Assembly (NCBI GenBank): GCA_903861645.1
Contig: CAIOVE010000025.1
Coordinates: 1 to 64,000 of the forward strand
DNA: 64,000 nucleotides
Direction: 5' to 3'
DNA from: an uncultured Hyphomicrobiales bacterium
GTDB lineage: Bacteria; Pseudomonadota; Alphaproteobacteria; Rhizobiales; Beijerinckiaceae
Positions 30,190 to 32,959 of this stretch are shown piece by piece (position 1 is the first letter of the stretch; every line of letters begins with the position of its first letter). Under the pieces are notes generated by a model. It saw only the letters and a program-made list of their open reading frames with translations, did no database searches and was not told where the DNA came from. The position numbers and the translations under genes were made by a program.

Positions 30190-30216
30190 AACCCCGCGCT
30201 CCGGCGCGGGGTTTTT
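30190..30216 (+). terminator. Intrinsic terminator after ybhL
   Basis: CCCCGCGC and GCGCGGGG form a perfect 8-base stem around TCCG and are followed by TTTTT. It lies 24 bases past the ybhL stop codon. An A-rich flank (AAGAA) upstream gives it partial bidirectional character, which suits the convergent DUF2794 gene. Confidence 0.9.
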
Positions 30217-30220
30217 CGTT

Positions 30221-30616
30221 TCAGCCGGTCACGAGCCGAACGCGCTTGTCGAGCACGGCGATGACGCGCTCCAGATCAACGCCGCGCTTCATGATCAATC
30301 CCGTCGCCGCGATGACCGAATAGGCGCCCTGCTTGCGCGCGAGCTTGGGATCTTTCTCGATGCGATAGAGCGGCATTTCCGAGGTTCGACGGAAAATGGA
30401 GAAAACGGCGCGCTGGGCGCCGAAATCAATGGCGTAGTCGCGCCATTCGCCCGCGGCGACCATGCGGCCATACAGGTTCATGATGACGCGCAATTCGTGC
30501 CGGTCGAAGGAGACGATCGTCGGCGCGGAGGATCGCTGGACAGGCGCGACCGGCGCGACGGGCGACTCGCCGTCGGACCGCAACGCCTTGAATGGAATGG
30601 GCTGTATCTCCGCCAC
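30221..30616 (-). CDS. DUF2794 domain-containing protein
   Basis: This protein of about 131 residues belongs to a small alphaproteobacterial family without known function. The conserved core is TIVSFDRHELRVIMNLYGRMVAAGEWRD and SIFRRTSEMPLYRIEK, ending VDLERVIAVLDKRVRLV. I place the start at the GTG at 30614-30616 because ACAGGAGG lies six bases upstream, a much better ribosome site than those for the ATG at 30634 or the track start at 30718. It is convergent with ybhL. No membrane segment or catalytic motif is visible. Confidence 0.82.
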   Translation of the reverse strand: MAEIQPIPFKALRSDGESPVAPVAPVQRSSAPTIVSFDRHELRVIMNLYGRMVAAGEWRDYAIDFGAQRAVFSIFRRTSEMPLYRIEKDPKLARKQGAYSVIAATGLIMKRGVDLERVIAVLDKRVRLVTG

Positions 30617-30740
30617 GCGCGCCTCCTGTCCCATGTTCGCGCGAAGGTCGATTCGACGCAAGCCGCGGGAATCGTTCCTTCCTTGAGCGACGCCTCGCGG
30701 CTTCGTGAACGAATTCACATTTTCGCCCCTATCTGGCCGG

Positions 30741-30917
30741 ACCCCCGCCCCAGTGGCCCGTCAAGGTTTGATCATCGCCTTGAAGGTTCGGTTTGCCGCC
30801 TTCCCGGATTTGTCAGCCCCCCAGCCCTCCGGGGGGCGGCGTTAGCGGACCGCCCCAGTTGGGCCAGGGTTGATCCAGACCGGCGTGGAGCCTCCGCTCC
30901 CGCCGGTCTCTTTTTTT
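30741..30917 (+). ncRNA. Candidate small RNA ending at a strong terminator
   Basis: The 402-base gap between DUF2794 and htpG contains no gene, but two strong hairpins on the plus strand. The first is GCCCCCC/GGGGGGC with loop AGCCCTCC (30816-30837). The second, at 30878-30908, is an intrinsic terminator with loop CCTCCG followed by seven T. Both loops expose CCTCC, complementary to a Shine-Dalgarno sequence, as in several described alphaproteobacterial trans-acting small RNAs. A weak CTATCT -10-like box at 30729 suggests the 5' end. I could not match it to 6S, SRP RNA, tmRNA or RNase P RNA. Confidence 0.45.
30878..30917 (+). terminator. Strong intrinsic terminator upstream of htpG
   Basis: A 12-base-pair stem (GACCGGCG, a bulged T, then GGAG on the left arm) closes a CCTCCG loop and is followed by TC and seven T. 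No annotated plus-strand gene ends here: ybhL already has its own terminator 660 bases upstream, and DUF2794 is on the other strand. The terminator therefore implies a transcript from within the gap. Confidence 0.85.
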
Positions 30918-30933
30918 GATCGATCGCGAGGCC

Positions 30934-30962
30934 CTTGAATCCCGGCGCGCGGGCGGCGATAT
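30934..30962 (+). promoter_or_regulatory. Candidate heat-shock (RpoH) promoter of htpG
   Basis: CCCTTGAA contains an exact CTTGAA heat-shock -35 element. About 14 bases later comes CGGCGATAT, a weak match to the RpoH -10 element. It lies downstream of the strong terminator and about 55 bases upstream of htpG, where its promoter is required. The -10 match is poor, so the call stays tentative. Confidence 0.42.
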
Positions 30963-31018: not shown

Positions 31019-32959
31019 TTGTCAGAGAGCGCCGAAACGAACGCCACCGCCAAATCCCATCATTTTCAGGCCGACGTCGCGCGATTGCTGCATCTCATGG
31101 TCCATTCCGTCTATTCGGAACGGGACATCTTCCTGCGCGAACTGGTGTCCAACGCGGCCGACGCCTGCGAAAAGCTCCGCTACGAGGCGCTGTCGTCGCC
31201 CGCCCTGAAAGCCGATGACAGGCCCTTCGCCATCGGCATCGAGATCAACAAGGAGGCGGGAACCCTGGCCGTTGTCGACAATGGCGTCGGCATGAACCAG
31301 GACGATCTCGTCAACGCGCTGGGCACGATCGCCAGTTCGGGCACGCGGGCGTTTCTCGAGCGCATCGCCCCGAAAAAATCCGACGACGAGGAGCGCGAGA
31401 CCGAAGGCGGCGCGGGCGATGACGCGGCGGGCCTGATCGGCCAGTTCGGCATCGGCTTCTATTCGGCCTTCATGGTGGCCGACCGCGTCACGGTCGCCAC
31501 GCGCAAGGCGGGTTCCGCGGAGGCGTGGAGTTGGGAATCCGAAGGCAAGGGCGACTATACCATCGCGCCGCTCGACCCGGTGTCGGCGCTCGCCCATGGC
31601 ACGCGCGTCGTGCTGCACCTCAACGAAGCCTCGAAATCCTATCTGGAAGGCTGGAAGATCGAATCGATCATCCGCGAGCACTCGGGCGGCATCGCCATTC
31701 CCATCGAACTGCGCGAAGCGCCCGACGCCGACGCGCGTTCCCTGACCGACGGCGCGGCGATCTGGACAAAGCCGAAAAGCGCGCTGACGGAAAAGGATTA
31801 CACGGCTTTTTATCAGGATCTCGCCAGCCAGTTCGACGAGCCGGCGCTCACCATCCACTGGCGCGCCGAAGGCCGCCATGAATACACGGTGCTCGCCTTC
31901 ATTCCCGGCTCGCGACCGCTCGATCTTTTCGATCCCGCCCGCAAGTCCCGCGGCAAGCTCTATGTGCGCCGCGTCCTGATTTCGCAGGACAGCGACCTGC
32001 TGCCCGGCTGGCTCCGTTTCGTCCGGCTGGTGGTGGATTCAGCCGACTTGCCGCTGAACGTCTCGCGCGAAATGATTCAGGAAAGCGCCGTTTTCGCCGC
32101 CATCAAGCGGGGCGTCGCCAACCGCGTGATGCAGGAGCTGACGAAGCTCGCCGAAAACGACCCGGAAAAACTCGCGAAGGTCTGGGAGAACTTCGGCGCG
32201 GTCATCAAGGAAGGTCTCTACGAAGACCCGATGCATCGCGACGCCATATTCAAGTTCGCGCGGTTCGCGACCTCGAACAGCGGCGACACGAAGCGCACGC
32301 TCGCCAATTATGTCGCCGACCTGCGCCCCAACCAGACGGCGATCTATTATCACACGGGCGAGGACGGGAAGCGCATCGCCGCCAGCCCGCAGCTCGAGGG
32401 CTATCGCGCCCGCGGCATCGAGGTGCTGCTGCTGTCGGACCCCGTCGACCCCTTCTGGATTTCCAATTCGGTCGGCTTCGATGGCAAGCCCTTCAAATCG
32501 GCGAGTCAGGGCGCGGCGGATATTTCGACCGTGCCATTCATCGAAGGGAAAGAGGCCCCGTCGAGCGAGGCGCCCAGCGCCGAGGTCGCGACGTTGCTTG
32601 CCTTCGTCAAGCAGACGCTGGGTGAACAGGTGTCCGACGTGCGCGTCTCCGAGCGTCTCGCCGAAAGCCCAGCTTGCCTGATCGCGGCCGACAGCGCGCC
32701 CGACCGCAGGCTTGAACGACTGTTGGCCGAGCATGGCCGTCTCGATGACATCTCCAAACCGGTCTTCGAAATCAATCCGAACCATGAACTGGTCGCCTCG
32801 CTGGCGCGCCGGTTGAAGGAGGAAGCGGACAAGTCGCTGATCGAGGATTCGGCCTGGCTGCTCTTCGATGAAGCCCGCCTCATGGATGGCGAACGCCTCG
32901 CCGATCCGGCGGCCTTCGCCGCGCGGCTGCGACGGGTGCTCGCCCGGGCGGCGCATTGA
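31019..32959 (+). CDS. htpG: Molecular chaperone HtpG (Hsp90)
   Basis: HtpG is the bacterial Hsp90, an ATP-dependent dimeric chaperone. The protein has 646 residues. The GHKL ATPase domain shows FLRELVSNAADACEKLR, DNGVGM and GQFGIGFYSAFMVAD. The middle domain contains YVRRVLISQDSDLLPGWLRFVRLVVDS and NVSREMIQ. The C-terminal dimer domain ends in a rather variable tail. The start is TTG at 31019, supported by AAGAGG six bases upstream, with no in-frame ATG nearby. A heat-shock-like -35 box lies upstream. The prmC gene overlaps its stop codon. Confidence 0.95.
   Translation: MSESAETNATAKSHHFQADVARLLHLMVHSVYSERDIFLRELVSNAADACEKLRYEALSSPALKADDRPFAIGIEINKEAGTLAVVDNGVGMNQDDLVNALGTIASSGTRAFLERIAPKKSDDEERETEGGAGDDAAGLIGQFGIGFYSAFMVADRVTVATRKAGSAEAWSWESEGKGDYTIAPLDPVSALAHGTRVVLHLNEASKSYLEGWKIESIIREHSGGIAIPIELREAPDADARSLTDGAAIWTKPKSALTEKDYTAFYQDLASQFDEPALTIHWRAEGRHEYTVLAFIPGSRPLDLFDPARKSRGKLYVRRVLISQDSDLLPGWLRFVRLVVDSADLPLNVSREMIQESAVFAAIKRGVANRVMQELTKLAENDPEKLAKVWENFGAVIKEGLYEDPMHRDAIFKFARFATSNSGDTKRTLANYVADLRPNQTAIYYHTGEDGKRIAASPQLEGYRARGIEVLLLSDPVDPFWISNSVGFDGKPFKSASQGAADISTVPFIEGKEAPSSEAPSAEVATLLAFVKQTLGEQVSDVRVSERLAESPACLIAADSAPDRRLERLLAEHGRLDDISKPVFEINPNHELVASLARRLKEEADKSLIEDSAWLLFDEARLMDGERLADPAAFAARLRRVLARAAH

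Follow-up and report, generated by a model that had tools for sequence, protein, structure and literature searches.

A small RNA gene between DUF2794 and htpG

The window (the whole 64,000-nt stretch of DNA analysed here) contains, between htpG and a divergent DUF2794 gene, a gap ending in a strong terminator, raising the question of whether this gap holds a gene of its own and, if so, of which kind. It is a real small regulatory RNA gene. Sequence comparison suggests, with a probability that we put at roughly 0.9, that its product is a stand-alone, intrinsically terminated RNA of about 143 nt that is orthologous to BjrC174 of Bradyrhizobium (Rfam RF02355) and PmaR/C10 of Agrobacterium (Atu_C10, RF02497), and is thus not ‘unassigned’, as a first-pass annotation had it. 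Features of the locus are listed in Table 1.

Table 1 Main features of the DUF2794-htpG region of the window.
Feature	Position	Strand	Basis or remark
DUF2794 gene (PF10984)	30221..30634	-	Pfam 135.5 bits; divergent neighbour of the RNA
Promoter array (putative), 11-bp spacing	30716..30749	+	C30716, G30725-C30727, G30736-C30738, G30747-C30749
Small RNA, BjrC174/PmaR type (probable)	30773..30916, start +/- 3 nt	+	cmsearch, Rfam, fold
P1 closing stem, 5′ strand (AUCGCCUUG)	30774..30782	+	Partner about 30864-30874; fold, permutation
Stems P2 and P3 (spoon handle)	30785..30852	+	Covariation
Conserved C-rich loop TCAGCCCCCCAGCCCTCC; putative seed for target pairing	30813..30830	+	Conservation; PmaR CCCA
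Intrinsic terminator hairpin and T run	30878..30917	+	Sequence and fold
Presumed RpoH-like promoter of htpG, CTTGAA-N17-CGATAT	30934..30962	+	Sequence; separate from the RNA
htpG (Hsp90)	31019..32959	+	Pfam HSP90 329 bits

The span originally proposed for the RNA, 30741–30917, folds far better than chance (−86.9 kcal/mol, z −4.4; 0/200 shuffles as good), but its boundaries need to be shifted. Because of the comparative alignment and the start point of PmaR, the RNA is placed at about 30773–30916, with its start probably near 30773 rather than 30741 (fold of the trimmed RNA, 30773–30917, z −4.9), while 30716–30749 corresponds to the upstream array. As that annotation had noted, the terminator (stem 30878–30908; T run 30911–30917) lies outside the coding sequences of both neighbours. 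Use of an upstream GTG would lengthen the DUF2794 reading frame to 30718. Another terminator-like hairpin, readable on both strands (30190–30213), separates the DUF2794 gene from a convergent Bax1-I family gene.

In the window, as in its genus and a number of further families, the RNA lies immediately 5′ of htpG, as would be expected of a cis-acting htpG leader or attenuator. However, the RNA ends in a terminator, and htpG appears to have its own promoter 3′ of the RNA, at a motif that we liken to the RpoH consensus, the CTTGA of which recurs at the same place in most same-genus relatives. Moreover, while htpG is downstream in many of the first 44 loci compared, it is absent from this position in Bradyrhizobium-type and many other loci, making a leader function highly improbable.

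Relationship to BjrC174

At the gathering threshold, an Rfam scan of the window identified a tRNA only and nothing at the gap; none of the known housekeeping RNAs 6S, SRP, RNase P and tmRNA matched the window at this threshold. The Rfam search proposed in the first-pass annotation was informative at permissive settings, where the best match is to RF02355 (BjrC174) over its full length (1–201; 24.8 bits, E 0.016), but this falls below the gathering score of 45 bits. The remaining weak Rfam matches, to ctRNA_pGA1, BjrC80, DLEU2_6 and RNaseP-T, resemble terminators or are due to chance, the 10-bit RNaseP-T match on the other strand being a chance one.

BjrC174 is an sRNA of Bradyrhizobium and Rhodopseudomonas; its expression as an abundant RNA, from a promoter validated as active, is known for Bradyrhizobium only (PMC4842269). 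Searching the order with RF02355 gave matches in 65 of 249 genomes, 17 of them above the cut-off, and by tblastn almost all of the first 44 loci, including the seven best RF02355 matches (L015–L021), have DUF2794 next to the RNA. When 84,980 genomes were scanned for exact matches to the loop motif, at least 118 stretches were returned, and the matches listed are almost all from Hyphomicrobiales, many of them Bradyrhizobium; among the 118 stretches listed, 100 have a divergent DUF2794 gene within 900 nt, eight lie at a stretch edge and ten have no such gene. Among these ten, the matches in Halomonas, another gammaproteobacterium and Bacterium HR30 are probably due to chance.

The window RNA is positioned like BjrC174, beside a divergent DUF2794 gene, and has the conserved stems and C-rich loop of that RNA. 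A covariance model built from relatives of the window, excluding Bradyrhizobium (R2), recovered all seven Bradyrhizobium-type loci (L015–L021; E 1e-6 to 2e-4). A second model (R1), built from all 62 homologues, gave a single match in the window (62.9 bits, E 3.4e-10), the window copy being among its 62 training sequences. Orthology with BjrC174 is therefore based on the DUF2794 locus, recovery by R2 and covariation, and not on the Rfam score alone.

Conserved stems

Comparison of this gap among relatives, suggested as a check in the first-pass annotation, revealed strong covariation across 62 diverse homologues. In stems P2 and P3, 87.3% of cells are paired, compared with 77.5% in shuffles, and two-sided changes were found in 111 cells versus 40.6 in shuffles (0/500; given kinship among the sequences, not a strict probability). 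The covariation score of 0.404, compared with 0.225 after shuffling (0/500, again not a strict probability for related sequences), collapses when the pairing partners are slid. For P1, pairing of the 5′ box with its own pre-terminator linker has a mean energy of −9.4 kcal/mol, versus −6.8 kcal/mol with linkers of other species, an advantage matched in 0/5000 permutations (the sequences being related, not a strict probability). That this is a small RNA of the trans-acting type, as proposed earlier, is well supported; the comparisons made here themselves show homology, a conserved locus, structure, loop and promoter array.

Relationship to PmaR

PmaR of A. tumefaciens, formerly C10, is encoded between two hypothetical ORFs and is said to occur only in Agrobacterium and a single Rhizobium strain. 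It is described as spoon-shaped, G47 closing a C-rich loop that has CCCA at 58–61 and an accessible G62 (PMC6234868). Probable Rhizobiaceae in the genome sample were picked by ar45 (RF02347), and in 60 of their DUF2794 flanks the C-rich motif was found in a hairpin loop 33 times on the expected strand and 0 times on the opposite strand. The exact PmaR spacing was seen in one genus, including genome G746, identified as A. fabrum C58 because 3 kb of its smallest listed contig are 100% identical to the Ti plasmid record of that strain. At the C58 locus (L357), beside a divergent DUF2794 gene, the RNA has G18, G19, G47, CCCA58-61, G62 and G81, agreeing with all published PmaR positions, and the array is found at −47 to −23 of the RNA. 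Rfam identifies this RNA as Atu_C10 (RF02497; 120 bits), with its start at the same base (895), and it also gives a weak overlapping match to RF02355.

The window RNA is likewise a spoon with CCCAG in its C-rich loop. RF02497 is absent from the Rfam matches of the window up to E 10, and PmaR itself obtains a low score with R1 (18.4 bits, E 0.06), so the link to PmaR rests on the locus, the array, the P2 sequence and the loop. An ar45 RNA (RF02347) is also present in the genome of the window (G000:C66:97025-97176; 68 bits, above the cut-off).

The C-rich loop

Two CCTCC strings, previously assigned to both hairpin loops and proposed to repress translation by pairing with Shine-Dalgarno sequences, are indeed present (30826–30830 and 30891–30895). 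In the fold, however, the three 3′-most bases of the first are paired in a stem (UCCGGG), and CUCC alone of the second sits in the terminator tetraloop. Neither is conserved: in most homologues the first site reads CCCCCC, and the terminator loop varies. The exposed element that is conserved among homologues is UCAGCCCCC(C)AGCCC, in the loop form CCCCC(C)AGCCCC. Selecting loci by the motif makes the loop look more invariant than it is, and DUF2794 flanks fetched independently of the motif were used as a correction; about 22 of 80 such flanks carry the TCAGCCCCCCAGCCCTCC loop with at most one mismatch.

C-rich hairpin loops are also found in the ar14/suhB and cuckoo RNAs among alphaproteobacterial sRNAs. 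Action as an anti-Shine-Dalgarno repressor through loop CCUCC, like these CCUCCUCCC RNAs, would fit the presence of CCTCC at both places in the window copy, and C-rich loops could pair with GGAGG. Such a role is unlikely given the lack of conservation of CCUCC at either place and of any match to RF00519 (ar14/suhB) in the window; in addition, in PmaR, the one homologue whose function has been studied, the C-rich interacting region has mostly positive effects, exerted at sites other than ribosome-binding sites, and is described as not anti-Shine-Dalgarno (PMC6234868). CCUCC-mediated repression is thus not supported as the family mechanism.

The loop could alternatively be bait for a protein instead of a seed for mRNA pairing, and Rho, for example, prefers C-rich single strands. 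That the C-rich loop is unpaired and yet extremely conserved is consistent with this, as is a search of four related genomes for strong, extended complementarity to targets, in which long complements of the loop, sought as dedicated targets, were no more frequent than in a reversed-pattern control. Nevertheless, PmaR binds murB and ampC mRNA in vitro via its CCCA stretch, and changing CCCA to UUUU abolishes target regulation and binding (PMC6234868), leaving a bait function very unlikely. Regulation of murB, ampC and other targets is an experimental result from Agrobacterium, and it is for PmaR that the pairing step has been demonstrated; trans-action through pairing of the C-rich loop to G-rich mRNA is the probable mode for the window RNA.

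A second conserved, unpaired C-rich element, GUACGGUUCAAUCCCC or near variants, is found in the linker before the terminator (L049, L062, L083, L087, L106), and elements of this type occur in many Xanthobacteraceae-type homologues; UYAAUCCC or UAAUCCC is present in 15 of the 62 homologues.

Upstream array and proposed mechanism

The pattern C-N8-GNC-N8-GNC-N8-GNC is found in 94 of 100 homologous loci, compared with 1.5% of shuffles, and in 86 of these 100 loci its last unit is 23–24 nt 5′ of the RNA 5′ box. Given so constant a divergent neighbour, the conserved upstream region and the RNA might both be parts of the DUF2794 gene, as its promoter or an antisense leader. This is highly improbable, as the distance between the array and the RNA start is fixed and loci without a DUF2794 neighbour (L264–L268, L272) retain both. 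Because these loci keep the array, it goes with the RNA and is probably the RNA's own activator site. L264–L267 and L128, with RNA and array but no DUF2794 nearby, have an extra conserved segment, GTTCGGTCATCCCCTCCGAC, before the terminator.

Of the start sites tested in B. japonicum that lack a recognisable promoter motif, that of BjrC174 showed the highest promoter activity (PMC4842269), as would suit a promoter that depends on an activator. In its geometry the array resembles OmpR-family operators. CenR was rejected as the regulator, its motif (TGA-N8-TGA) giving no fit to the array (PMC9275681), and comparison with the ChvI and BvrR literature gave no usable match.

In the fold, P1 forms a closed stem and P2-P3 a long handle, UCAGCCCCCCAGCCC is exposed in a large loop, and the terminator comes last. 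For the organism of the window we infer expression, targets and regulator as follows. An activator would bind the four 11-bp-spaced repeats just 5′ of the RNA, probably leading to transcription, and the loop would most likely pair with G-rich stretches of several mRNAs, altering their stability or translation.

Distribution and implications

Class-wide searches identified the RNA, again with DUF2794, in families outside the order, and divergent forms (array plus CCC-rich loop) occur in further families. In L229, also outside the order, two tandem copies of the array and C-rich spoon RNA (about 225–330 and 417–525, with the stretch oriented from DUF2794) lie upstream of a single DUF2794 gene. 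Whether BjrC174, PmaR and the window RNA are all one ancient alphaproteobacterial sRNA, linked to DUF2794, occasionally duplicated, reaching beyond Hyphomicrobiales and controlled by a single conserved regulator that reads four 11-bp repeats (OmpR/PhoB-type geometry), is a broader proposition on which we are evenly divided. If true, the sRNA would be the RNA arm of a core regulon, perhaps one for envelope stress. Joining RF02355 and RF02497 would extend the functional work on PmaR, with its targets in cell wall, beta-lactamase and motility functions addressed through the C-rich loop, to symbionts and methylotroph-like relatives as a testable prediction, and the 11-bp array offers a concrete handle for a regulator search.

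Comparison with known small RNAs

BjrC174 and PmaR/C10 were discovered separately by two laboratories and appear in public catalogues as two unrelated families; RF02355 and RF02497 carry no Rfam clan. The link between them seems to be new, no report of it having been found in the literature searched.

The window RNA differs from the ar14/suhB (RF00519) and cuckoo RNAs in its motif and in having no Rfam match to them. With BjrC174 it shares the DUF2794-divergent locus, stems P1–P3, the UCAGCCCCC(C)AGCCC loop, the terminator, the upstream array and a full-length alignment, but the first C run of the window copy has six Cs where BjrC174 has five, the 3′ side of its loop reads CCCTCC in place of CCCCCC, its score is below gathering and htpG lies downstream. 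With PmaR it shares the DUF2794-divergent locus, an upstream array with +1 where predicted, a handle with CCCGGU and a loop with CCCCCAGCCCC, while PmaR has a different 5′ hairpin, is shorter (89-nt Rfam model) and has ACCCUUUACC as the 5′ half of its loop.
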